Assembly: GCA_006384855.1 (NCBI GenBank)
Contig: VCJN01001147.1
Span: 310,001-374,000, forward strand
From: Tetraselmis striata
Lineage: Eukaryota; Chlorophyta; Chlorodendrophyceae; Chlorodendrales; Chlorodendraceae
DNA length: 64,000 nt
Reading direction: 5' to 3'
Part shown: positions 12,700 through 64,000 of the stretch, piece after piece
Position numbering within the stretch: position 1 is the stretch's first letter
Layout: each line of letters opens with the position of its first letter
Program-made: the position numbers and the translations under genes
The notes under the pieces: generated by a model
Seen by the model: only the letters and a program-made list of their open reading frames with translations
Databases searched by the model: none
Told to the model about the DNA's origin: nothing

Positions 12700-15351
12700 T
12701 CAATCAAGCTCCTCCTCGGTCGGCCCGCCAGCCCCCGCCGCCAGCGCGGCGCCCGCCGCGTCCTCTCGTTCCATCAGCGCCCGCACGCGCACAGCATCCG
12801 CCTCCAGCGCGGCCGCCTGGTCGGCGTCGCCCGAAGCCGTGCACAGCGCCGCGGCAGCCGACAGGTCCGGCACCGCGTGCGCATAGCGTCGGAGGTGGCT
12901 GGCAGCGGCGCCGCGCCTGGCAAGCAGGCGCTGCAGGCTGGCGCGCTGCGCCCCGCCCAGCGCCCAGCCCTCCGGCAGCGCCCCCCCCTCGCCTGTCTGC
13001 ATGCACAGCGAGCACGGAAGGCATCACAAGTCAGGACACCAACAAGGGAATAGCATCCCGCCCTCACTGCCATGGCTGTTAGAGATGGGGTGCCCTCAGG
13101 GTCCTATCTATCTATGCCCCTGTGCCATTCATCTGATTTTGAACTGTAATCTTTATTATGTTCAGTTGTATATTGTATTGCATTTTCATCACTACATGCT
13201 TTCAGTTGCATGATTGGGATGACTGTTTCCGCACTTTATACTCTCATACATGTTTTGATAGCATCAATATATGAGTTTACAACCAACAAATCTCGTCACA
13301 GAAACAAAAAGAAGCAATAAAACAAAGAGTACATGTACCATCAAACACACCACATAATGTGCAAATGGAAAGCAACAACTTACCCATGCATACCCCCCCC
13401 CCCCCCCCCCACCACCATCACCAAAAATAACTTGACAAAATTTAACAGTATATACAATAACTATACCAGGGCAGTCACTGCGGCACTTTTGGCCGGAGCT
13501 AAAGGCAGACGCGGTTGGGATGGATGCAGGCGCCGTGATGTGCGCTGTGCGCGGGCAGAGCGTCCTGGCGTACCTCCGCAGACAGCAGCCGCTCCGACAC
13601 CCACACATGCAGCTGCTCCAGGCCCGCCACCCCCAGCCCCTCCAGCAGCATGACGAGCGCCGCGTTGCAGTCGTTGAGCGCGGGCTGGAAGTCGCCGGCC
13701 ATTAGGTAGCACACGGAGCGGTTGGAGAGGCCGGCGAGGCGCTCCGCAGGCGTGAGCCCCGTCAGGCCCAGCAGCATGCTGTATGCCTCGGCGCCGCCCA
13801 GAGGGTCGCCGGCCTTGACGCGCGCGTCTGCACGCCCGCGCAGGCTCGCCGCGTCTGCTGGCGACATCGCCGCGCGCACCTCCTCCACGTTGGCCGCCAG
13901 GGTTGCGTCGTCGGGCGACGCCGCAACCGCCGCCTCGTACGCCGCCAGCGCCTGCGGCAGCTCGTCCAGCTGGCAGTGGGCGGCGCCCTTGCGAGCCAGC
14001 AGACGCAAGCGCATGGTGGCCAGTTTGACGAGCTCGGCGCCGCCGACACCTCCGTCCGCGCCCGCCAGCTCCTGCAGGCGCCTCAGCATGGGCGCCAGCT
14101 GCTCCAGCCCGGCCTCGCAGTCCGCCACGCACGCCGCCACGTCCCCCAGCTTGAGGTGGCACGCAGAGCGGTTGGCCAGCGAGGGCAGGTGCTCCGGGTC
14201 GATGGCCAGCGCGCGGCTGTAGGCATTCAGCGCGCCCTGGAAGTTCCCCTTGGCGTACAGCGCGTCGCCCTTGTCCTTAAGGAACACCGGCTGACGCTCG
14301 CTCACGTCGGTCATGTCGTCCAGCGCCGCCAGCTCGCGCTGCTGGCGCTTGTACTCCTTCAGCTCCAGCTCTGCCAAGACCCGCCCAGACGCCCAGACAG
14401 CTGTCAGTGCCTCCCGTCCAAACAATCCAAGACGCAATTGAAAACTACCCTGACAAGCATGCCATGCACACCCAGATGCATATGCAAAAATATATGTCAT
14501 ACATGTTATTGGTATAAACAAACAATCCATCATACACTCACCCTCACACCTAGGAGGAGGGCGGGGGGGGACTGACCTCTATTCTCACGCGCCGGCAAGT
14601 GGCCCATCTCCAGTTTAGTGAACTCCACCTCCACCGCCTCCATCACCCGGCGCGGCGGCGGCATCGGGCGGAACGTGGTGGCCCTTGAGGCGCGCCCCTC
14701 GTCCTCGTCATCAGAGCCGCTGCTGCTACTGGCCGAATCAGCTCCGCCGTCCCCGTCCTCATCGCTGCTCGTGTTGTCAGCCTCCCACAGCGGTTTTTTC
14801 TCCTCTGTCTTGTCCGGCGTGGTACTGCCCTTTGCGGCTGCAGCTTCAGTAGGGGTGCCTCCATGCTCCTCCGCGCCGCGCCATCCCTTGCCGTGATAGT
14901 GCGGATGGTCTGGCATGGAGGCTGCCACAGCGGCCTCATCTACCGGCACATCATCTGCATCCTCACTCTCCGTGTCGCTGTCATTGGCTAGTCACCACAT
15001 CCAGGCAGCGGCGTCAGTAAGCACCTCCTCACCTCCCACTCCCCTTTACCCCACATACCCACATGTAATCGGATGGGCGGCGCATGCTCTGGGGCAGCAC
15101 TGGGTGGCATGAAGGCGGCGAGACCGGCCCAACGGCACACCTGCGGGGTCATCCAGCGACGCCTGCCAGCGCTTCAGCCCCTCCGCCTCTGCGCTGAACT
15201 CCTCTTTCTTGCGCTGCTCCACCAGCTGCCGCTTGGTGCACTCCAGCTCCAGCTGCCGGTCCGACAGTGCCCTGACGCACGTGCCAACAGGACGTGTGAT
15301 GCGTTACTTCGTGCGAGTAGCGATTACCACCTTGGACACTCAAAATGCAGG

Positions 15352-16364: not shown

Positions 16365-19300
16365 TTTTATTACATAAGGGCTTTCACAAAAGCGCACTAC
16401 TAACAGAACTAACTTCAACTGTGAAAGGTTGCCAACAAAAGAGAGACATAAGCCTGAAACCAAGGTCGAGCAGGAGGACAGGGAGCCAAGAACCAAGAAG
16501 GAGCCAAGGGAACCACGAAGTCACTTAGCTGCCAGGGACCAAAGGGACCCCCGCCCCGGGGTAGGCTATCAGCCGCGGCGAGGACGCTTGCAGCCAATGA
16601 CCCGGGTCATAGCAACACATGCCGACGAGCGACGCGACGCAGGCGCAGGAGTACCATCACGTGCCGCACGCGCGGACGCGACCCCGCCAAGAACGTTGTC
16701 TGCATGTGCCATGTTGATGAGCAAGGAGAAACGGCGGCGCCACGCAGACAAGAGGTGGCCGATTTTTTTGCCAGTGTGTGTGTGGCTAGCTTTCGCGAGC
16801 TCCACCAAGAAAGCCTCGGCGTGCGGGGCCAGCGAGCCAAACTCGGAAACGGCGAAAGGAACAAAGCGAAGCATGCCGGCGGCGTTTCGGACACCCTCGT
16901 CATACTTCTGGATTTTGTGGCGCTCTGCAGCCCTCAAAGCAGTCGTTGGATCCGAGCTTGACACGCCGAGGATGGGGGCAATGGTGGTATCGATAGCAAC
17001 CGTGTTTCCGCGGATACCGCCATACCCGAAAAGCCCAACATCGGCCGGCCGGCCGTCGGTGCCCTTCGGGAGAGAAACAAGCACCGACGGGTCCGTGAGG
17101 ATCTGGACACCCACGCCCAGCGCGGACTTCACGTCGTGGCAAATGTCGGAAAGGCCATGTGCGGCCCACTCGTGTGCGGCGTGATTGGAGACACCCCCAG
17201 AGCAACGTGCCACGTGATCAGCGTATGCGACCGCCCAAGTTGAAGGAGTGAACTCCACGCCAGCGTCCTCAAAACGGGCCAGCATACCTTGTACCGAGAA
17301 GGAGCAAGAAGCACAAGGGCATGGCTCGCCAAGGGAGAGGACAGGAGCCGCCGGAAGGCCAAATGGGCGGCAAGCGGCAACACGGAACATGGAATCGTAG
17401 TACTCAGGGGAACGCTCACGGACTTCACCAAGGCGACCCTCGCTTGGAGGATCAGTCACCAGGAACGCTGTCGCAGCGCGTAAGAGGCGGCCTCGGAAGC
17501 GGTTGCTGTCAGGGCCACTTGTAGGCATACGCGCAACGAGCTTTGCGAAACGGACCGTGTGAATGCGGTGGCTCAGGGTTTCCTGTACTTTCCGCATGGA
17601 GTGCAAGGGGAAGTCCGAGTAATGCGGGATAGCTCGGAGGTCGGCTGCCGAGCGCATTGCAGACGCCGGCTCGGCCCCGGCGGCCGAGCAGCCGGCACGG
17701 GCAACGTGGGAGCGCTTGGAGGGGAGCAGCTTTAGGGCAGAGGCCAACGGCCCCGCTAGATCTTCGAGTACCGCGTCTCCACACTCCTCAACGACACGGG
17801 TATGGGCGGCGCGAAGCTCGACAGCCCACATCGGTGCCGACGCGTTGGCGCCGGCATCGAGCTCCAACGTTGGGGTGGCCATAGCCTGGTGGATCGAGGA
17901 CGCCCCAACAAGGTAGAGGCTATGAGGGCTGGATACGCCGGACGGGTCGGAAAAGAACGCCCCGGCGTCGCTCAGGGTGGCGTGTTGAGCACGGAGGAAA
18001 GTCACAGCTTGGCCAACCACGAGGGCGGCAGCGCCGATGTGGGAGGCATCTGCTATAACCACATTATCGCCGATGCCGAGGCCCCCAAATTGGACCGGGA
18101 GGGACAGCTGCGTGCGCATGGAGGGCGTATCCAAGAGGTCGGGGCTAACACCCCATATGCCGGCAAGCGTTGAAAATGCGGCGGCGTCTGCATCTTCGAG
18201 GAAAGACGTAATAGTGTCGCCATACCCCTCGGATCGACCCAAGCCCCGAGGCGTGGAGCGGAGATGGTGGCCAAAACGACGGCCGCAAACTTGCAGCAAG
18301 CGAGTAGCAGTGTGGGAGTGGAAGTGGTCTGCCAAACCGACAAGGCGGGAGCCGAATTGGTGAAATCTTTCGACCGTTTTGTCCAGCAGTTCCCGGGCGA
18401 AAGTGGCCGAGCCCACAGGGGCCCCAAGCACCTTGATTCCGGACGAGGAGACTGCAACACCATGCAACAAATGCCCAAATGGAAGGGCGCCGAACGGAGA
18501 CGAAGAGCCAAGCTGACAATACGCCTGTCGTTTGCGAATGGTGACGCTCAACCCAACGGCGGCAAAAGCGGAGGGGGCCACCCACGTAGCAAGCGCAAGT
18601 CCATCACCAGTGCCGACCAGGTTGACGTCGTCAGAGAAAGCCGCCAACACTGAGTGACTGGGGGCAGCCGCGCCGATGCGAGCGTACACTCGGGCAGCGA
18701 CGGCGGCGAACAGGATGAGGCCGAGGACGCAACCCTGGCGGGCCCCTCGACGGCTTGGAATCCGGAGAGAGGGACCGGGTTGGGAGCCGTCGAAAACGTA
18801 CAGATTGGACTCTTGACCATAAAGCATGATCGCCGAACGCAATAGAGGCTGCCAAACAGGGTCCTCGAGCAGTGTGCGGAACATTTCGGAGCGGTAGAAC
18901 GAATTGAACGCGTTTTCGGCGTCAAGCTGCACCAAGACGAGGGATGGGTCCGAGTCTAGGAGAGATCGCACAAGGAATTGAACTAGTTCCACGCCACCCT
19001 TAACGCCAAAACCGAACTGGCCGCGGGCGGCAAGCCATTGGGCGATGGGCTCGCCATGAGCGCGCAAGAGGACGCGCATAGCGAACCGGACAAGCACGCT
19101 GCCGATGCCAATGGGTCGAACGGACCCCTTCATGTCTCCGGCACTTAGTTCCAACGCATTGCGCTCCGCCGGCGTGAGCTTATCTAGGGGAACCAAGGTA
19201 GCGGAGGAAAGGAAATGGGCAACGCCAGCAGGGACCTCCGCATTCGCGATGGCCTCGGCTATGCCACGGAGGTGGGAGCGCGAGCAGAGGGCACGGAGAG

Positions 19301-20777
19301 CCTCAAAGCGGATGCCATCGAGGAATGGGGCAGAACCATTGGGGCTGCTGGACAACACCTCGCAAACGTCCACCGAAGCCTCAGGGAAAGTGAGGCGGTC
19401 CAACGAGAACGGGTCCGGGAGCGCGCAAGGAACAGGGTCCGGGGTCTGGGGATGCAAGCGAAGGAGCTCTTCGTGAAGCCGCGGGCCAGTGGGCGCGAGC
19501 GGGACTGAGTGAAGGGCGGCAGCTGCGCGGCTGTACTCGCCCACCGCGGCCAAAGCCGAGGCCCGAGCAGCTTGGCGTTTGCTTACCGGCGGTGGGTCCT
19601 CACAATTGGCCGACGCCGGAGCCGCGTAATCATGAGGAGTAGCCCGAACAGATGCATGCGTACGCGCGAGGGCGAACAACGCGTCTAGGTCACCACGCTC
19701 CCAATGGGACAGACGGTTGTCACGGTAGTCTGCCACCGGGTCGGGGGGTAAAGACCCTGGCGGGGAGTCAGCCATGGGCCGCAATATCAACCTGAAGAAC
19801 AAGAGGTAGGCGCTCCACGCAGCATGGGCAGCCTCAGATTGGCTCGCGCGGCCCTTGAACGAGAGAGCGTAGGTAAGGGCGGCGTCATGGTGGGGTTTGA
19901 CCAGGGCAACCACGGACTTAGGGCATCCATTGGCGCAAGTAGCAGACCGGAAGGACAGGAGGGTCGACTCAAAGAAATCAAGTTGCGAGGCGCCGCCGCG
20001 GGCACCACGATCGAAACACCAGCGAGCAGCCGGGGGCATATCGCCCAAACCCGCCGTAGTATGTAGTCCGCCCCCGGAGCGAGGGAGAAGGACGGACGCC
20101 GGCTGGGCCGCGCCCGCCGCACAAGAACGCAGGTGCCGACCAAGGCCGGAAGCGTGGAACCACAGGCCGCATCGCTGGCATGCCGACATCAAATGCCGAT
20201 CTGCGTCACGAACTGGACATCCGTCGGCCGGGCGGGCGGCTAGACATGCCGGCGAGGAGGTCATGTGGGCCCGCAAGTCATTTACGCGTGGATAGGGTTG
20301 AGCACACCCGACGCAATGGAGGGTCGCGGGCTGGCTCGGCTCAGCACCTTGTGGTAGCGACACCGGCGGGGCTGGCGGGGTCTCGGGAGGAGGGCTCGAG
20401 GGCAATGGGGGCATCGGAGTGACGACCAAGGGCCGGTGGTGAGCCGTGGTTGGCTGCGCTGGCTGGCTGTGGCCTGGCGATTCGGAGGGGGTGGAGACCG
20501 CGGGGGAAGGCCCAGAACTGCTGCCGCCACCGGAACAAGAAACCAAGCGAGCGCCGTCCGGTGTACGGGTACCAGCACCCGAAGTACCAGCTGCGGTAGG
20601 GGTACCAGTATGAGGACGAGTACTGGTACTCAAATAAGGACGGGGGCTGCCAAAAAAACGGGGGGGGGGTCGGTCCGCGAGACGCCAGGCGGGTGACGGG
20701 CAGGCGCAAGGCGCGGCGGCCGATCGGTCGGCTGGGGAATCGCAAAATAACCCACTAAATAATAGCTTAATTAATTA
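16365..20777 (-). mobile_element. Intact non-LTR retrotransposon, RLE-type (R2/NeSL-like layout)
   Basis: The element spans about 4.4 kb between 16-bp direct repeats. Read on the minus strand it has a ~144-bp 5' UTR, one long ORF (16569-20633), a ~200-bp 3' UTR and a short A-rich tail. Domain order (N-terminal C2H2 fingers, RT, C-terminal Cys/His motif and restriction-like endonuclease) is that of early-branching LINEs such as R2, NeSL and CRE. An unbroken ORF and a perfect TSD indicate a recent insertion. It lies about 435 bp upstream of the DNAAF4 start codon. Confidence 0.85.
16569..20633 (-). CDS. Retrotransposon polyprotein: zinc fingers, RT, RLE endonuclease
   Basis: A 1354-aa uninterrupted ORF. 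The N-terminus is Ser/Thr/Pro-rich, then two finger-like motifs (CVGCAQPYPRVNDLRAHM around residue 105; CQRCGLWFHASGLGRHLRSC around 150). The reverse transcriptase shows motif A (LDAENAFNSFYR), motif B (RQGCVLGLILFA) and motif C as AAFSDDVNLVG, an F-S-D-D variant of FxDD, then GIKVLGAPVGS. The C-terminus has CPCASC with a distal HVARC, and a PD-(D/E)xK-like endonuclease signature (RPADVGL, AIDTTIAP, HKIQKYDEG). It would nick target DNA and prime reverse transcription from the nick. Catalytic residues appear present, so it may be autonomous; activity is inference. It is the only complete RT gene in the window. Confidence 0.85.
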   Translation of the reverse strand: MSTSTRPHTGTPTAAGTSGAGTRTPDGARLVSCSGGGSSSGPSPAVSTPSESPGHSQPAQPTTAHHRPLVVTPMPPLPSSPPPETPPAPPVSLPQGAEPSQPATLHCVGCAQPYPRVNDLRAHMTSSPACLAARPADGCPVRDADRHLMSACQRCGLWFHASGLGRHLRSCAAGAAQPASVLLPRSGGGLHTTAGLGDMPPAARWCFDRGARGGASQLDFFESTLLSFRSATCANGCPKSVVALVKPHHDAALTYALSFKGRASQSEAAHAAWSAYLLFFRLILRPMADSPPGSLPPDPVADYRDNRLSHWERGDLDALFALARTHASVRATPHDYAAPASANCEDPPPVSKRQAARASALAAVGEYSRAAAALHSVPLAPTGPRLHEELLRLHPQTPDPVPCALPDPFSLDRLTFPEASVDVCEVLSSSPNGSAPFLDGIRFEALRALCSRSHLRGIAEAIANAEVPAGVAHFLSSATLVPLDKLTPAERNALELSAGDMKGSVRPIGIGSVLVRFAMRVLLRAHGEPIAQWLAARGQFGFGVKGGVELVQFLVRSLLDSDPSLVLVQLDAENAFNSFYRSEMFRTLLEDPVWQPLLRSAIMLYGQESNLYVFDGSQPGPSLRIPSRRGARQGCVLGLILFAAVAARVYARIGAAAPSHSVLAAFSDDVNLVGTGDGLALATWVAPSAFAAVGLSVTIRKRQAYCQLGSSSPFGALPFGHLLHGVAVSSSGIKVLGAPVGSATFARELLDKTVERFHQFGSRLVGLADHFHSHTATRLLQVCGRRFGHHLRSTPRGLGRSEGYGDTITSFLEDADAAAFSTLAGIWGVSPDLLDTPSMRTQLSLPVQFGGLGIGDNVVIADASHIGAAALVVGQAVTFLRAQHATLSDAGAFFSDPSGVSSPHSLYLVGASSIHQAMATPTLELDAGANASAPMWAVELRAAHTRVVEECGDAVLEDLAGPLASALKLLPSKRSHVARAGCSAAGAEPASAMRSAADLRAIPHYSDFPLHSMRKVQETLSHRIHTVRFAKLVARMPTSGPDSNRFRGRLLRAATAFLVTDPPSEGRLGEVRERSPEYYDSMFRVAACRPFGLPAAPVLSLGEPCPCASCSFSVQGMLARFEDAGVEFTPSTWAVAYADHVARCSGGVSNHAAHEWAAHGLSDICHDVKSALGVGVQILTDPSVLVSLPKGTDGRPADVGLFGYGGIRGNTVAIDTTIAPILGVSSSDPTTALRAAERHKIQKYDEGVRNAAGMLRFVPFAVSEFGSLAPHAEAFLVELAKASHTHTGKKIGHLLSAWRRRFSLLINMAHADNVLGGVASARAARDGTPAPASRRSSACVAMTRVIGCKRPRRG

Positions 20778-25416: not shown

Positions 25417-27787
25417 ATGCAGTCATTCTTGCGGCGCATATACGGGGACGTCGAGGGAGGAGACGATGCAGCCGCAGGGGCGGTGGATGCTGCGCTACCG
25501 CCAGTGGACACCGTCGACGATGCTTGCCAGCCACTTGCGGAATCGGCGCGTGCTGGGGATGGCCTCAGTCTGGTGGACGGGGAGGAAAGCGCCGCCGGAG
25601 AGGTAGGCTGTCCCTCAGCCGCGAGCCGAACCTCGCGTGTTTTCACCTGCGCACGGACGGCAAAGGAGGATGCACATCTATCGCATGCCAGGGGCGGGGG
25701 CGGGGGCGCGGAATGTTGCCGCTGTTGGTAGGGCGGATGCACTTGAAACGTCCTCTGCCGGCCGCCTTTGCAAGCGTGTCATTCGCTGCCGGACCCGCCG
25801 CACTCGTGCAATTGGCCCCCCTGGATTTATGCATCGGAGAACCGCTCGGGTCTGCCAGGAAGGCATCGTGGCGCGGGGCTTGCCTTGGGCCGAGTTGCTT
25901 TGTTCCGTGTGTTTTTGCAAGGTCTGCAAGCACTGGCGGCGACGCGGTTATTGCATCTTCGGGCGCACATGCAAGTTCGAGCACCCCGAAGAGGAGCGCG
26001 GCGCGTTGCTGCCGCCGCCGCCGGCGGACAGCAGCAACAAGGCCAGGCGGAAGGCCAACCGCGGGGTCGGGAAGCGGAATTCGGTGTGAGCAGCAGCCTC
26101 CGAGTTCCACACGCACGATACATTGTCTGGCTCGAGATTCGTTTGGCCCTTTGCCGCCGCTACTCTTACGGAATTTGAAGCATATCTGGTGCCCTTGGCA
26201 TTGAGTAACATAGTGTACCTCAGACCAACACACATCTGTGCCGTGTGACAGGTGAAGAATCGATTTAGAGCGTCGGCATTTCGAAGGCAACCCCCCCCCC
26301 CCCCCCCTTCCCCCTCTGCGGCTTGTCTTGCATTACAAACCAGCATCCTCTTGGTGCAGGTCACCTTGATGGGTCAAGCCACTCATCCATGCGAGCATGC
26401 GCCGTCTGCGCCTCAGGTTCCTGATCGACATTTTTGGTGAGGACACACTGCGCAGCGGGGCGGGCGTGCTGGACGTCGCAGGCGGCAAGGGCGAGCTGTC
26501 CTTCGAGTTTGTCAACCTGCATGGGCTTCAGAGCACTGTGGTGGATCCGCGCCCATTGCATCTGGCCAAGTACACCAAGTATCTCAAGGTGAGCTGCCCG
26601 TCAGCCGCCGGCACGCGCAGCACCATGACATAACCCCCCTCCTGAACCCTAAAAGACCCCCCTCCCCCCCCAATCCTCCGTTAATCATGTACAGAAAGGC
26701 CTGTACCATCGCAATGCAATCTTCTGTCAGACATTCTCCAGGAGTGTGGACAGCGCCCGGGAGGAGGAGGCCATCACCCCTCCGCACCTGCGGATGTGCC
26801 TGGAGCCGCGACTGGTGGAGCTCGTGCGCCAGAGCACAGTAGGCAATGCCCCGGAAGGCGACGAATCTGATCCCATGCTGGCGCTGCGGGCGGTCGTGGA
26901 GGGCGCGATGGCAGCGGCGGCGCACATGCGATGGACGCGCAAGGGGCTGCTGGGTGAGGGACACGAGGCGGAGGAACGGGGGCAGCCATCCGCCATGGGG
27001 GACTCGGACGAAACGGACAGCATTGCATCGTCGATTGTGGACGAGGAGGTACTCCCCCCCCCCCCCCCCCCCCCCTCCCAACCTGTCTGTCCCCTAGGTT
27101 GTACCGTTATAGCCAACCGACGCTGTATCAGCAATATGGAGAGGTTGTCGTGGAGGCTGCAGCTCTACAGCCCTCTACTGTCATGAGGCAAGCACCTTTT
27201 CTATTTTCTAAGGCCCGTGAGTTCAATCTGTCCCCGCAGAGGTGGGAGAGCCAACAGGTTGGCAGTGCTGAGGAGGCCATCCACCTGCTCCTCAACTGCT
27301 CCGCGCTGGTGGGGATGCACCCCGACCAGGTACCCCTTTCCCTGTCCCTGCAGACCAATTGGCCATGACGTGCCACCATGCTGGCACTTCCCGCACATGA
27401 TTTGTTGACGACTGCTTTAGAGTGGATGGTCTGAGGTGCGGCTGATTCTATGAGCATGCCTCACATGTGATGTACCACGACACCCCCACCCCCCAAATGC
27501 CGTCTTTGCCTTGTGTCGATACGCAGGCCACCGAGCCCATCGTGGACTTGGCGCTCTCGTTGGGAAAGCCCTTTGCTGTCGTGCCGTGCTGCGTGTACGG
27601 GCGGTGCTTTCCGCGACGAAAGACGGCGTCTGGCGAGCCTGTCAACACGTACGACGATTTCGTGGAGTACTTGCTCGCCAAGTCGCCATCATGCGCGTGC
27701 ATGGAGCTACCTTTTGAGGGGCGCAACAAGGTGGTCTACAGCACTGGCGCCGCAGCCACAAACGCATGCTCTCGACCTGACGAATAG
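25417..27787 (+). CDS. CCCH zinc finger plus SAM-methyltransferase-fold protein
   Basis: Six-exon model: 25417-25602, 25922-26085, 26417-26588, 26695-27048, 27240-27329, 27527-27787; 1227 nt, 408 aa plus TAG, phases consistent. Exon 2 carries one CCCH finger (CKHWRRRGYC, then CKFEH; C-x8-C-x5-C-x3-H), suggesting RNA binding. Exon 3 has a Rossmann-type motif I (GVLDVAGGKGELSFEF) and a following acidic strand end (TVVDPRP), as in Methyltransf_32-like proteins. Exon 6 has the conserved block KPFAVVPCCVYG with FEGRNKVVY, known from a poorly studied protein family. An RNA methyltransferase is plausible; the substrate is not known. The exon 2/3 junction (GT then G, using donor GTGAGC at 26086) is the least certain join. 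Introns hold poly-C tracts at 26291 and 27054. Confidence 0.75.
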
Positions 27788-28100
27788 AGGCTAGGTGGCG
27801 TGTCAATAGCGGATAGCCCTTGATAATGTGCATCCATCAGCGGGTCCTTGGAACAACTCTGCTTGCGCGGCAGAGCGTAGCTTCCAGGTCCTCCGCAGTT
27901 GGCACTCAGCGGACGATTTCATAGCTTGGACCCCGCCCCTCCTCTTAATGATTGTTACAAGTTTGACTGTTGTGCCGGGTGCCCAGGATATCTGGGTATC
28001 AAGGGAACCATGCAATTAGTTGGCCTTCATGTGCCCGGCTTGAAATAAAAGAGAGGTTGGGGTTGAGGGGGGGGGGGGGGGGGGGGGGGCTGACTTTTGG

Positions 28101-28170
28101 GGCGCATGCACGGTCATGTCAGCCACGCTCGATCGTTGCTTTAACGAGGTGGCGTCATTGGGACCGCGCC
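28101..28170 (-). promoter_or_regulatory. SECIS-like element in the 3' UTR
   Basis: On the minus strand, 61 nt after the TAG stop: helix I pairs GGCGC (28170-28166) with GCGCC and GGTC with GACC; then ATGA (28158-28155); helix II pairs GCCAC-CTCG with CGAG-C-GTGGC (one bulged C); the apical loop holds AAA (28142-28140) 12 nt after ATGA; TGA (28121-28119) closes the quartet opposite ATGA. These are the defining parts of a eukaryotic SECIS: the ATGA/TGA non-Watson-Crick quartet, an AA-containing loop and the expected spacing. SECIS elements recruit SBP2 and the Sec-specific elongation factor so that in-frame UGA is read as selenocysteine. Found by eye; not scored by a program. Confidence 0.78.
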
Positions 28171-28218
28171 AGGGCACCAGGGGGTCGCCGCTAGGGTATG
28201 CTTTGGATCGGCAGGCAG

Positions 28219-29714
28219 CTAGAGCTCGTCCGCAGCACCGTGGATCTGCTTGAGCACCGCGAGGCGGGCGTTGAGCCAAGCCGCCAGGTCGGGCTTCATG
28301 GTCGAGCCCTTCATGCCGGCGAGCCTCTCCGCCTCCGCCGCCACGTCGCCGGCCGAGCGGGTGCTCCACTTGGCGGCGTACGCAACCTCTCGCTCGCTGC
28401 AGCCTTTGCCGGTGGCGACGGTGCAGAGCGAGGTCCGACCCGCTTCCTGCACAAACTCCAGCAGGTAGGAGTGCTTGGGGCCCAGCTCGTCGCACACCGC
28501 CATGTCCGTCTTCTTTTGGTAGTGCGCGCCGCCGTAGCCGGTGGCCTTGTTAAAGTACTTCACGGTGGGCCAGCCGCCCATCCCGGGGTTGTGCTCCCCA
28601 CGGATGGGCGACTCCGACAGGTTGACGTCGCCAAAGGCCACGTCGGGGTTGTCTTTAAACAGAGCGGTCACCGAGTTCCAACTCGGCGACTGCTTCCGTC
28701 ATCAACCTCAGCCCTCGCTGGCAATCCAGCGAACAAAGAGAGTCTTGTCGCTGTCGACGGCCGCCTTCACGGTGGCGTCGAAGTTGTCGGGGGTCAGCTT
28801 GGTCACCTGCGTGCGCGAGCGGAAGGGGGGAGAAGGCTGGTTAGAACCCAAACATAAATGCCGTACAACGTACATGAGATGGTCTTTATAAACCGTGTTC
28901 TCCCATGTAGTCCTTTGTTCTTTGGCATATGGCACATGGTGCGGTTCCTACTTTCAGTTCTGCGCAGCAAGGAAGCTTCAGAGTTTCAATGGTTCGACCG
29001 TGATCGGGAGGTAAGGATGAGTAGAGATAACATCTCTTGGGAAGCACCGGATTCGTACACGACTTGCCACAAAGGTTTTTTGGAGACAAGTCGGAGCACT
29101 GGTAGTACCAGGGGTCAGGTAGTACGAGTGAGTGTTAGGGCTTTCACTACCAGAAAATTTCCCACGATAAATAGTGTGACTGTGGGGACTAGCGCCTGAT
29201 GACCTTCATACAACCGCATTGTGTCCCGACGTCCCGAACGCTTGCAAGCGGGCGGTGCGCGAGTTGTCGGCGGCACTCACCGGAATTCGTACCGGTACTA
29301 ACACAACTCGTAGCCGGTGTGCATGTCATTTTCGAAAAAAGCAACAGTTGCATAAACGTGCCGCGGGGCTGACTAGCCCGTCCGCGCCAGTGACGCGGGA
29401 GAGATAGACGGGAAAAAACGAGGCGGCGAAGAATAGGGCGGGGCAAAGAGGAGGCGCTGACGCCCACAGGTGGCACAAACCGCTTTTTGCGGCTGGAGCG
29501 TGGAGCAGTCATCAACAAGGGGTTTGGGTTTGGGGGGCTTGGGCGACGGGGTAGTTGGTGTGTGGCGGAAGAGAGGGGGGGGGGGGGGAGGGGGGGGGGG
29601 GGGGGGGGGGGGATAACGTACATAGGACCAGTGATCGGCGGTGTAGAAGGACTGGCCGGTGGCGCTGTACAGCAGCGCGCACAGGGTCGCGGCCACGAGG
29701 GCGCGGGCTGCCAT
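28219..29714 (-). CDS. Secretory thioredoxin/PDI-like selenoprotein, three Sec codons (UGUU)
   Basis: Two-exon model: 29622-29714 (signal peptide MAARALVAATLCALLYSATG) and 28219-28806; 681 nt, 226 residues counting TGA as Sec, ending TAG. Exon 2 opens VTKLTPDNFDATV, the usual first strand of a PDI-type thioredoxin domain. The active-site region reads ASEGUGUURKQSPSW: three in-frame TGA codons (28708-28710, 28702-28704 and 28699-28701). UGUU aligns with CGHC of PDI, and the downstream K-x-x-P-x-W spacing is kept. The frame stays open on both sides, with a cis-Pro motif (GGWPTVKYF) and a C-terminal helical region. It ends in ADEL, a possible weak ER-retrieval signal. A SECIS-like hairpin follows the stop. 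Probable role: ER redox chemistry. Without Sec decoding, annotation software would split it at 28710. Confidence 0.78.
28807..29621 (-). other. Long intron of the selenoprotein gene
   Basis: Donor GTACGT at 29621, acceptor GCACGCAG ending at 28807. A G run on the plus strand (29574-29612) is poly-C on the sense strand starting about 10 nt after the donor. Nothing else is recognised in it. Confidence 0.65.
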
Positions 29715-30101
29715 GGCGCTCGGCCTGGGGCGCCAGCTGCTGCTTGGCCCGGGCGAGTTGCACCGCGTGTCTGCAATAACAGGTACGCGCTGCGCGTTTG
29801 CCCCTCGTTGCGCCACCCCGACGACCCCCCTCGGGCGGCCTGGCCTGGCTGATGGACGACACCAGCATATCGGTTCGCAAGGATTGTAGCGGTTATATCG
29901 CGCGGACGACCATCATGATATAGTGCACGATCGTCTAGGCGCGCGCCACAATCGGTACGGGTACGGGTACTGCCCCGCCGACGCCAGTACTCGTTTATTT
30001 CATATACTAATCCTTATTATTTTTATTTTTATTATGTCGTAAAAATCGTAAAAATCGACAAAAGGTGCCCGCCTGGCCTGTAAGGAAGTAAGGATTACAT
30101 A
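29715..30101. other. Intergenic stretch upstream of the selenoprotein gene
   Basis: Would contain the promoter of the minus-strand selenoprotein gene. AT-rich beyond 29990 (TTATTTTTATTTTTATTATG). No specific motif is claimed. Confidence 0.4.
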
Positions 30102-32624: not shown

Positions 32625-34138
32625 TTCCTGGGTACGGCGCTTCTTACAGCTACAGCCGAGTGCGGGTCAACCATCCGCACACATGCACATGGCGGCTCAA
32701 CCAACCGCCTCCCGTGCCATTCCATCGCTGCGTCCGTCGGTTGTTACACTGCGTGTCACAACCGGTTCACAACGACCAAGCTTCGCACGTGTACGTTACG
32801 CGCATGACAGGCGCTACGAGCGCGAAGGGCGCGCGGGGCGGCCCTCCTACCTGAACCTAGCCCCGCAAACCCGTACTGGTGCTACTGCAAACCCGTCCAG
32901 CAACTACCGGCCAGCCGCCGGGAATCTAACCGATGCTGCCGAGTACTTTGCAAACAGTACTCCAACCTCTGGAACTCTGTCTGTAAAACGACGCACTTAC
33001 GTAATTGACGAGCCCGAAGCTGTCGCGCCATGGGCTGCCTCACTGCGATCTCGACTACAAGACGCTTTCGGCTCGGACAAGCTAGGACAAACAGACACTC
33101 GACCTGCTCTCCAGCTCCCTCACCGCTCAGACGCTCAAGAGCTACGCCGGCAGACTGTCTCAGTTCGCGGAGTTCTGCCACGACTCCGAGAACATCAGCC
33201 CGCTGGAGGCGACCACTGCAACTGTCGTCCGGTACGTTGCCTGGATTGGTGAACGAGGGCACATTGGAGCTAAGTCACTGCAACCCTACCTGTATGCAAT
33301 CAACTCGTTCTTCGAGCTGCACAACCTCGACCCAATCGCCAAAGACAGCCTACACCTCACTTCGGCAAGGCGTGGGCCGATGCTGCGGCAGCGCCGTCGG
33401 GAAGCAGCCCCTTTGCGAGTTCCTCTGCCTGCTGATGTAGCTTACCGCTTCGTCACAAAGGCCGAGCTGATTGTGCATGTTTCCACCCCAGAGTACCAAC
33501 ACGACTTTCGAGCCCTCGTGGCCTCGGTTGTCAACTTCATGTTCTTTGCCAGAGGGCTTGCTGGCGTCTCCTGCCGAGTTCGGGATGTGCATGTCGACGA
33601 TTACAACATTACCTTGCGGGTGTACCGCGAGAAAGGCCGCGCTGGACGACGGGGACGCGACGACTTGCGCGTACTCCTCCTTCAAGTGGCAGAGCACCCC
33701 CGGGTTGCACGTCTCTTGCACTACTTCATCGACACAGTACAGTCTCTCCCCCTGGTTACTGTTGCCTTGGCTGAAACAAACTTATGGGCGGTCACCCCGA
33801 GCGAGCAGTCAAAACCTTGGACTGCCGCTACAATGTCGGACTGGCTGTCTACAGCCGTCCGTCTTGTCGGTGCTGCCCCTCCCGCCGGCACTTCTTGGAC
33901 CTCACACAGCCTTCGCAAGGGAGCAGCGTCTGCGGCTAACGCCATCGGAGTACCATTGTCCCACATTCTCTACCAAGGTGGATGGGCCACTAACTCCGAT
34001 GTCGTTCTGGACTACATCGACCCCAACGTCCTTCCTTCGCATGGCGCGTGGTTCTTCTTTGGCCACATCGCCCCCCTCCGCCACTTCCAAGTCCAACAGG
34101 ACTCCGTAGCGGTGGCCTTCCCGGTGCCTCCTTCATGA
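32625..34138 (+). pseudogene. Tyrosine recombinase of YR element copy 2, frameshifted
   Basis: The N-terminal half is open to about 33090, where a one-base insertion shifts the frame (copy 1 reads GQRTLDLL at this point). The catalytic half is open from 33380 to the stop at 34138 with the Arg box, HSLRKGAASAANAIGVPL, YQGGW and VLDYIDP all present. It therefore has complete catalytic residues but a broken N-terminal domain. Confidence 0.8.
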
Positions 34139-60240: not shown

Positions 60241-61217
60241 GATGCCCAATCCCATCCCGGAGACGAAAAAAAACAGGCTGGCGGGGTTGCTATAAAGATG
60301 CAGGATCCCACTAACCTAAAACCGCCCTTTTACAAAATAACTATATAAGGTTATGTAATCCCTAAGCCGAAAGTGGGCCGACGTCACGGGATAGTCGATG
60401 GAGCGCAGCGCAGCATGCCGCCAAACGAACTCGATGGATGGGGTGGGGTAGGAGCGCGACACACCTGCCCGCTCCCACCTACCCCGCACCTCGGACCAGC
60501 CAGCGCGTAACGAAAGAGCCCCAGTTCCCGTGCACTGTGTGCACAGTCCCTCTGCAGAAGATAGCCGCCTCCGAGACGGTGAGTGGTGCCGGCGGGGCTA
60601 GGCGAGGCGAGAGGAGGCGGGGCGGGGCCGCGGGGCCGCGAGGGGATCGAGCCGGCATGTCTCGCCGCGGCGCTAGGCGGACGAGGTTCCCGCGGCGCTG
60701 GGCTGCGGGGGGTGGGCAGAGCGGCAGATCCGCCTAGTAGGAGAGCGTGAATGCGGGCTGGGATGGGTACGGAATGCAGGGACGCGTGGGTGCTGTGCCG
60801 GCTGGCGGTGCCCGTCGCTCGCAAGCGGCCCCCGACCTGGCGAACTCATGTATCACAGAAGTTGCGGGGGCAAAGCCGAAGGCGTGACCGCCTGACACCC
60901 GCACTGGGTGTTTTTCCTCCTTACCTCGGATCGTCTGGTTGCGCAGTACTGCCTGGCGCTAGTTCGGAGGTCTGATAGGCTTGCCACGTTGGCCGTGAGG
61001 TGGTACTGTGAGTGGGGCAGGGGGGAGCTGTTGCAGCCGCGCCTAGGTGCCCTGAACAAGGTAGACCCCATCCAGGTTGCGACGTCCGGGCTCCGACGTG
61101 CGCTGTGCTCTTCTGCCATTGATATCTCGGAATGAGCCACCCCTTCCTCACGGGTGTGCGCGCAGACAGCGGCGCGGGAGCTGACAGCGGCGCGGCGGAG
61201 CGGGCGGTCCAGCAAAG
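60241..61217. other. Upstream region of the kinesin-2 gene
   Basis: Carries an imperfect inverted repeat (GGGGTAGGAGCG near 60450 versus CGCTCCCACCTACCCC near 60470). The kinesin promoter and 5' UTR must lie here; no element is assigned. Open frames on both strands lack recognisable domains. Confidence 0.4.
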
Positions 61218-64000
61218 ATGGCGCACCTCGCACCCAAGCAGGAGGATGAGTGCGTCAAGGTGGTGGTGCGCTGCCGGCCGATGAACACCAAGGAGATCAA
61301 CGATGGGCGGCAGCGCATCGTGGATATGGACCTCACGCTGGGGCAGGTGTCGGTGCGCAACCCCAAGCTGGACGCGCGCGAGCCGCCCAAGACGTTCACC
61401 TTTGACCAGGTGTACAACTGGGACGCGATCCAGATCGACATCTTCAACAACGCCGCCAAGCCGATCGTGGACAGCGTGATTGGCGGCTATAACGGCACCA
61501 TGTTTGCGTACGGCCAGACAGGCACCGGCAAGTCGTTCACTATGGACGGCGGCCCGGGCGAGCTGCAGGGCATCATCCCCAACGCCTTCAAGCACATTTT
61601 CAACCACATCGACAGCAGCGAGAACACGCAGTTTCTGGTTCGCGCCAGCTACCTGGAGATTTACAACGAGGAAATCCGGGACCTGCTCTCGCGAGACCCC
61701 AAGCACCGGCTGGAGCTGAAGGAGAACTTGGATAGCGGCGTCTACGTCAAGGGGCTGAACTCGTTTGTTGTGAAGAGTGTGCCCGAGATCCAGAACGTCA
61801 TGGACGTGGGCGCCCCCCTCACGTTTACCTCTCCCGGCGCGCGTTCTGTGCCATGCCGCACCCAGCCGTATGACTCTGTGCTGGCGATGCGCCTGCAGGT
61901 GGGCAAGAAGAACCGCTCCGTGGGCGCAACTCTCATGAACCAGGACTCGTCGCGCTCGCACTCCATCTTTGCCATCACCGTGGAGACAAGTGAGATCGCC
62001 GGCGGCGCTGAGGCCCACATCCGGTGCGCAGACTGGGCCCCCCCCTCCTCCCTCTCCTGGCTACTACCCCCGCTGGCATGCCGACTGTCAGCGTCGCAGC
62101 ATCAAGAGCGGCGCCCAATCATGCCCCGCAGCACGCCTCTGCCCTCTGCCCTTTGCGCCGGGTCTGAGCACAGGCATGGCATGTCTCGGGGGAACTCGCG
62201 CGCAGGGTGGGCAAGCTCAACCTGGTTGATCTGGCGGGCAGCGAGCGGCAGTCGAAGACCGGCGCCACGGGCGATCGCCTCAAGGAGGCCACCAAGATCA
62301 ACCTATCACTGTCAGCGCTGGGCAACGTCATCAGCGCCCTGGTGGACGGCAAGAGCGGTGCGGCAAGAGCTGGGTGCTTTGTCGCTTGAGCGGCAGCTGG
62401 CATGCCTGGCTGTGCGCCGGGGGCGAGGTTGGCAGCGCTGACACCGTTTCCCCGGTGCATCCCCACCGATGCTGCAGGCCACATCCCCTACCGCGACTCC
62501 AAGCTGACGCGGCTGCTGCAGGACTCGCTGGGCGGCAACACCAAGACCGTGATGATTGCCAACATGGGGCCGGCGGACTACAACTTTGACGAGACGATGA
62601 GCACACTGCGCTACGCCAACCGCGCCAAGAACATCAAGAACAAGCCCAAGATCAATGAGGACCCCAAGGACGCGATGCTCCGCGAGTTTCAGGACGAAAT
62701 CAACAGGCTCAAGGCTGAGCTGGACAACGCAGCGGCTGCGGGCGACACGTACGGGCAGGACGAGGAGCGGGTTGTGGAGAAGGTGATCGAGAAAGAAAAG
62801 GAGCTGGGCGAGAGTGAGATCGAGGCGATGAAGGCTGCGATTGAGGACGAGCTGAAGGCGGCTATGAACACCACCGAAATCGACGAGGCGGAGATGGCGC
62901 GGGTATGGCTGCTGTTCTGAGTGCGCCCTACTGGCTTGCCTTTCGGCTGCGCTGGGCTTGGTTCTATGGCGTCGATACCTGCCAGGAGCTGGCTGCGTCG
63001 GGGCAGCTATGCCGTTTTCATGCCGTCCGCCCCAGCGCGCATACTGCCTGGCTGGTGAGAGAACTGATCCGCTCGCCCGCCGCATGTAGATCCGCGAAGA
63101 GGCTGCAAAGCAGGCCAAGGATGAGCTGGATCGCCGCGCCGAGGAGACCAGGCGTGCAGCGGAGGAGGCGGAGAAGCTTAAGCGTGCCGCAATGACCAAG
63201 GAGCAGGAGGCCAGCCTCGCGCATGAGCAGGCGCAGAAGGCGGCGGAGGCCAGGTGGGGCAACCTGCTGTGTGGTTGTGTGAGCTGCCTTATACGCTGGC
63301 TCGGAGGAGTGCTGAAACGCGGCTGCGTGGCGGGCAGGGCGGCACTAGAGAAAAAGCTTGAGGCAATGCAGTCGAAGATCCGCATGGTGCGCTACTCACT
63401 CTCCTGGTTGTACACTCGCCGGAGCTTGCTGCAGGGCACACGAGGAATCCATTGCATTAGAGGACTGGGCGGCAGGGGTGCCTGAACTGGCAGTGACACC
63501 TGTGGAGCCCTGGGTTGCTGCAGGGCGAGTCCAAAACGGGCGGGCTGCAGGAGGTTGTACAGGAGACGGCTGAGGAGATTGAGAAAAAGCGGCGTGAGCT
63601 GGAGGAGAGGTGCGTGGATGATCCCCCCCCCCCATGTGTGTTTACAAGCTGGGCCTTGTAGGTGTGCGGGGGGAGAGGCTGACGCTGCTGATGTGGTATT
63701 GGGTGAGCCAGGCAGGCGAAGGCGCGCGAGGCGCAGGAGAAGCTGGCAAAGCTGGAGGAGGCGCAGCTGGCGAGCGAGGGCACGTACAGCAGCCTGCAAC
63801 AGGAGGCGGAGGCCAAGGGCAAGAAGCTGAAGAAGCTGTGGGGCCGGTACAAGGAGGTGCAGCAGGAGGTGGAGGATCTCAACGCAGAGCTGCAGCGGGA
63901 GCGGGAGGACATGCTGGACTCCATCCGCATGCTCACCCACCAGGCACGCCGCCGGAGGCGCCTCACCCGCTGTAGCTTCCCCCGCACGCACGCCGTTGAG
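61218..64000 (+). CDS. KIF3B: Kinesin-2 motor subunit, KIF3B-like (partial, runs off window)
   Basis: Kinesin-2 drives anterograde intraflagellar transport. Exons: 61218-61805, 61899-62023, 62206-62357, 62478-62902, 63090-63253, 63338-63386, 63524-63609, 63712 to about 63940 (end unresolved). Every join keeps phase. Motor motifs: [12 protein letters not shown]-loop [13 protein letters not shown], switch [12 protein letters not shown], switch [21 protein letters not shown], then [17 protein letters not shown] and [20 protein letters not shown]. The [16 protein letters not shown] and [20 protein letters not shown] segments resemble KIF3B more than KIF3A, which would make it the FLA8-type subunit by the Chlamydomonas scheme; I am not certain of the paralogue. 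An acidic stretch and charged coiled coil follow the motor. Introns 61806-61898 and others have GTGCG/GTGGG donors; the first has no in-frame stop and could be mistaken for coding. Confidence 0.9.

Follow-up and report, generated by a model that had tools for sequence, protein, structure and literature searches.

A probable three-selenocysteine member of the PDI_e family, with a U-G-U-U active site, encoded in Tetraselmis striata

The window considered here, a stretch of 64,000 nucleotides from Tetraselmis striata (contig VCJN01001147.1, positions 310,001 to 374,000, assembly GCA_006384855.1), carries on its minus strand a two-exon gene whose second exon holds three in-frame TGA codons at the active-site position of a thioredoxin-like domain (Table 1). 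The coding sequence of this exon reads from 28806 to 28219; an earlier note on this DNA had the coordinates right and left the strand unstated. With TGA rendered as U, i.e., selenocysteine (Sec), the minus-strand translation is VTKLTPDNF...FVRWIASEGUGUURKQSPSWN...GGWPTVKYF...HGAADEL*, comprising 195 codons plus TAG, which corresponds to the 196-codon frame with the cis-Pro motif GGWPTVKYF described in that note. The active-site codons run TGA-GGT-TGA-TGA in a frame otherwise open to the TAG, again as had been claimed; taken from stop to stop with TGA readthrough, the frame extends over 28219-28947 (242 codons) and contains exactly these three TGAs.

Exons 1 and 2 join in phase to yield a protein of 226 residues, including the signal peptide, and the resulting junction, ADHWSY|VTKLT, aligns with an uninterrupted DDHWNYSTKLT in its relatives. 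An intron that would excise the TGAs was also sought, by eye and non-systematically, and no fitting GT-AG pair was found near the site; the relatives read straight through it. The plus strand is likewise open over 28195-28857 (220 codons), apparently an antisense side effect of GC-rich coding sequence. Long poly-G/poly-C runs occur in the intron and the 3′ flank (about 29575-29612, 28067-28089 and 27054-27075), with lengths that differ between this gene and a second copy of it described below.

Table 1. Parts of the PDI_e-like gene and its 3′ flank, in window coordinates
Feature	Position	Strand	Description
Exon 1	29622..29714	-	ATG, hydrophobic signal-peptide-like stretch and N-terminus; MAARALVAATLCALLYSATGQSFYTADHWSY, 31 codons; read by eye
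Intron	28807..29621	-	815 bases; donor GTACGT, acceptor CAG; by eye and from two-copy comparison
Exon 2	28219..28806	-	Thioredoxin-fold domain and helical C-terminal domain; ends in -AADEL, TAG
TGA 1	28708..28710	-	Putative Sec at first position of CxxC, residue 33 of P0002; Cys in Corethron P0125/P0126
TGA 2	28702..28704	-	Putative Sec at third position, residue 35; Cys in Corethron P0125/P0126
TGA 3	28699..28701	-	Putative Sec at fourth position, residue 36; Cys in Corethron P0125/P0126
SECIS-like hairpin	28108..28169	-	3′ flank; helix I, ATGA/TGAC quartet, helix II, apical loop AAA

The 3′ flank of the gene can be folded into a hairpin resembling the Sec insertion sequence (SECIS), with eight pairs in helix I, nine in helix II and the AAA of the loop placed 12 bases past the ATGA. 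A scan of both strands of the window with our own pattern recovered seven such cores, three of which include helix I. When the 420 bases following the stop were shuffled 2000 times with dinucleotides preserved, 39 shuffles gave the core and 13 the full pattern. By this pattern and fold test, the gene has in its 3′ untranslated region a putative SECIS element of the kind expected of a eukaryotic selenoprotein gene.

For comparisons with Pfam, with structures and between folds, the exon 2 translation with Cys letters substituted at the three TGAs (P0002) was used. It matches the Pfam Thioredoxin domain (E 4.5e-6, with the Cys letters in place) and, in a single-sequence search, PDI structures with a best E of 1.2e-8; both CxxC positions of the classical PDI site are occupied by Sec codons. 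The cis-Pro loop GGWPT is present in all 69 rows of an alignment of relatives (A2) and takes the form GGWPS or GGWPM in four relatives outside it (P0123-P0126). A search of the PDB with the A2 profile returned nothing at 0.01, the profile having only 151 positions and rows that begin beyond the site predominating in A2. The model predicts a thioredoxin domain and, behind it, a tail with a weak likeness to ERp29, whose helices fall between 138 and 193 and which ends in -ADEL; the tail (about residues 128-195) was barely tested in the fold comparison (VIA-align list). The gene product is most likely a single-thioredoxin-domain protein resident in the endoplasmic reticulum (ER), with ER-type signals at both ends. 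This arrangement recalls PDI-D/ERp29, in which a helical C-domain and an ER-retention end likewise lie behind a thioredoxin domain, with the difference that the C-domain match of the present family is weak. ERp29 itself is not known to carry a redox CxxC. A C-terminal domain like that of the PDI_e-like protein (39% over 59 residues, pairwise E 9.8e-14) is also found in an FKBP-type prolyl isomerase of the same genome (PF00254, 1.6e-23; end -KEEL; locus L011, G000:C1234:7258-10437, match 1501-1680), where the same ER tail domain is fused to an unrelated enzyme.

A search with the joined 226-residue protein gave 158 database proteins at E <= 1e-3 (best 2.1e-71), the best 120 of which were tabulated; a second search with residues 22-75 added seven further relatives at E <= 1, bringing the tabulated set to 127. 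Set against P0002, 98 of these 127 begin at residues 37-61 (ten of them exactly at 37), and the other 29 start no later than residue 32. The active site reads W-G-W-W in 23 relatives and C-G-C-C in two (P0125, P0126), both from the diatom Corethron pennatum (taxid 218684), while two show R-G-W-W behind an unrelated 5′ end (P0024, P0040) and two terminate at ..WIASEG, directly before the first site (P0128, P0129). A TGA reported as W is the mark of gene calling under code 4, and proteins that start just after or end just before a TGA are the mark of calling under the standard code. We infer that the W residues of the relatives at the three sites stand for TGA codons read as Trp by gene callers.

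The C-G-C-C proteins of Corethron constitute the key control: the form without Sec has Cys in every one of the three positions, even the third. A protein search with region 28-110 of the Corethron protein as query gave these two alone and no other form without Sec. They bear directly on the suggestion, made in the earlier note, that the third TGA reflects a tolerated TGG-to-TGA change, i.e., that only the first and fourth TGAs matter as Sec and the third is a former TGG of a CGWC site, devoid of chemistry of its own. Trp is common at the third position of thioredoxins, and a single substitution converts TGG to TGA; however, both Corethron relatives have Cys there, which argues against such a slip. 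Further, 25 of the listed relatives extend over the site and are homologous upstream of it as well; they comprise 23 of the W-G-W-W and two of the C-G-C-C type, with no mixed form and no His at the third site, although the codons behind the W letters are indirect and some W-G-W-W rows might hold TGG. On this balance the tolerated-TGG explanation appears improbable, and the suggestion of the earlier note is best set aside.

The assembly (224 Mb in 2903 contigs) contains a second, haplotype-like copy of the gene (L010, contig C1122), which is 97% identical and keeps all three TGAs. The copies agree completely in exon 1, at both splice sites and over codons 1-123 of exon 2, and the intron has diverged by many substitutions and gaps. 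The ten substitutions in exon 2, all lying 3′ of the TGAs, comprise eight synonymous and two amino-acid changes. Over 140.2 synonymous and 435.8 nonsynonymous sites, this corresponds to a dN/dS of about 0.08 (binomial p 3.4e-4); therefore, a region that would be useless if the TGAs were true stops is under protein-level selection. These observations weigh heavily against the alternative that the locus is a pseudogene or an assembly error, in which the TGAs terminate translation and the frame downstream decays. Three in-frame stops within four codons would be natural to such a locus, as would the weaker hairpin of the second copy, but the identical TGAs of that copy leave little room for the sequence correction that the earlier note had envisaged. 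Likewise, the open frames of relatives cross the site and show no decay beyond it: the 98 relatives broken at the same point remain conserved downstream, with C105 kept in 69/69 rows of A2 and C128 and C136 each in 67/68. We hence regard this alternative as very improbable.

The genome is equipped to insert Sec. A family search for tRNA-Sec returned six loci, two of them above the cut-off, and these two (L014, L015) are identified by ARAGORN as tRNA-Sec with a TCA anticodon, whereas the two that come next (L016, L017) are identified as tRNA-Ser. Stretches of SepSecS were located on contigs C1906 and C1529 in ten matches, four of which contain an internal stop (two TGA, two TAA), probably on account of introns. 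Additionally, two of the 11 glutathione peroxidase matches (L020, L021) have one TGA, at the Sec site, and a PDI of the UGHC type with one TGA (L012/L013; G000:C730, C1306) reads, by eye, W-TGA-G-H-C with a signal peptide and a -KTEL end. SECIS-like elements follow these genes (ATGATGC..CCAAGG in L012/L013), as detected by a looser pattern that admits any NTGA except TTGA and a loop of AA or CC, carries no chance estimate and gave a second, weaker match in L012. All 48 listed thioredoxin-family matches of the genome are free of internal stops, and TGA therefore does not serve as a general sense codon here. That UGA is simply a Trp codon, as in code 4, with WGWW as the motif, is consistent with the apparent WGWW of the relatives in database gene calls, but scarcely credible in view of these 48 uninterrupted matches, the TGAs that occupy the Sec site of the peroxidase and the first active-site Cys position in the UGHC PDI, the tRNA-Sec and the existence of Cys forms of the family. 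As regards L012/L013 themselves, an intron splits the active-site Trp codon (by eye), and the start of the C-terminal domain resembles that of the PDI_e-like protein (36% over 33 residues, with exons joined by eye).

The earlier note presented the gene as a PDI/thioredoxin-like selenoprotein with U-G-U-U superposed on C-G-H-C, and the sites kept among the relatives, the purifying selection, the SECIS-like hairpin and the Sec machinery bear this out. It also took the protein to be of a type that could not be named, which does not stand: PDI_e, as described by Jiang et al. 2020 (PMC7539508), has three neighbouring Sec residues in a GUGUU motif within a thioredoxin-like fold, and comprises 12 genes from 10 algae. 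According to the same account, its hosts are mainly Haptophyceae and SAR, SECIS elements are reported, and the family represents the first case of consecutive Sec residues, the motif having been lost in Fistulifera solaris; Isochrysis galbana is among the algae it names in connection with PDI_e, and Corethron is absent from the main text of that paper. In the literature searched, a triple-Sec PDI is described in this paper only. The window gene shares with the described family the GUGUU motif (EGUGUURK), the thioredoxin-like fold and PDI-like sequence, and no difference from the published description was found. Judged by the described motif and fold, the gene is thus a well-supported further member of an already published family. 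In taxonomic terms, two of its relatives come from a SAR diatom, Corethron, yet in the Cys form, and the assembly is of eukaryote size. The present analysis adds to PDI_e an exon-intron structure, a comparison of two copies, ER signals, the ERp29-like tail and the C-G-C-C relatives.

Two other described selenoproteins invite comparison. EhSEP2 of Emiliania huxleyi, a PDI with a UGHC site that was the most abundant of the selenoproteins detected in that alga (PMC6254913), resembles the window protein in its single thioredoxin domain, its PDI-like sequence and the Sec at the first active-site position; it differs in having one Sec (UGHC) rather than three (UGUU). The Tetraselmis assembly also encodes an EhSEP2-like UGHC paralogue built along similar lines (L012/L013). 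The 3NSelP protein of amphioxus (PMC3473315) similarly combines several Sec residues with thioredoxin-like domains, but its three N-terminal Sec residues sit within a stretch of three repeated thioredoxin-like domains instead of sharing one active site.

Taken together, the analysis suggests, with a probability of roughly 0.88, that the gene encodes a three-Sec member of PDI_e with a U-G-U-U active site. Several observations pull the other way. TGA is directly observed solely in the two copies of this genome, its presence elsewhere being read from W in proteins, and DNA relatives were confirmed neither among 29 pattern matches in viral_contigs nor among 56 in genome_contigs; moreover, the tabulation of relatives covers 120 of the 158 matches. 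In the second copy a single mismatch interrupts helix II, and the pattern scan fails to pick up its hairpin. Rfam, applied to the slice 27400-29900 at E <= 10, gave no SECIS and three unrelated sub-threshold matches, and the genome-wide search with SECIS_1 (RF00031) gave no match, a result that says little as the controls were silent too. The domain assignments are also thin across the family: Pfam Thioredoxin is reached at E <= 1 in three of 18 relatives (best 0.026) and the ERp29 C-domain in four of 18 members (best 1.4e-4), with the latter score below the Pfam cut-off in both members for which a cut-off is shown. To these may be added the conjectural character of any particular role for the third-position Sec, taken up below.

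If the gene is a three-Sec PDI_e, its three UGAs would all be decoded as Sec by the tRNA-Sec(TCA)/SECIS system to give U-G-U-U, and the protein could act as a selenol/disulfide oxidoreductase of the ER. In such an enzyme, U33 at the helix N-terminus would attack the substrate disulfide and U36 would resolve the intermediate, as in CxxC enzymes. U35 would furnish a second chalcogen beside U36, allowing either a vicinal U35-U36 or an alternative U33-U35 diselenide, and as a second resolving partner it might shift the enzyme toward ER disulfide reduction or isomerisation, or toward peroxide clearance; we offer this role tentatively, with the odds somewhat against it. Position 3 is U or C whether selenium or sulfur is used (UGUU or CGCC), so a catalytic third position with a second, vicinal diselenide or disulfide can be proposed for PDI_e at large. 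Such a protein would be an ER relay or a scavenger of soft metals or peroxide and not a plain isomerase, a possibility that we favor less than its negation. The literature searched yielded no biochemical work on thioredoxin active sites that combine three chalcogens. The all-Cys relatives from Corethron provide a natural sulfur control for comparison with the selenium form, and their Cys at the third site makes the mechanism testable with ordinary recombinant protein. Three UGAs in four codons, two of them adjacent, would also put the processivity of eukaryotic Sec insertion to the test. Relatives also abound in collections of metagenomes and transcriptomes (158 clusters at E <= 1e-3), which would give the protein a possible bearing on algal selenium demand.

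Elsewhere in the window, a 1401-codon open frame on the minus strand (16572-20774) has a reverse-transcriptase match just under the Pfam cut-off (2e-6; 28.1 versus 29.6 bits) and is probably a retroelement. A 350-codon open frame on the plus strand (33086-34135) matches tyrosine-recombinase (phage integrase) domains, at best with 3.2e-5, in what is a eukaryotic genome. Finally, a TPR-repeat exon lies on the minus strand at 13502-14578 (1.3e-16) and a kinesin motor exon on the plus strand at 61185-62438 (2.3e-63).
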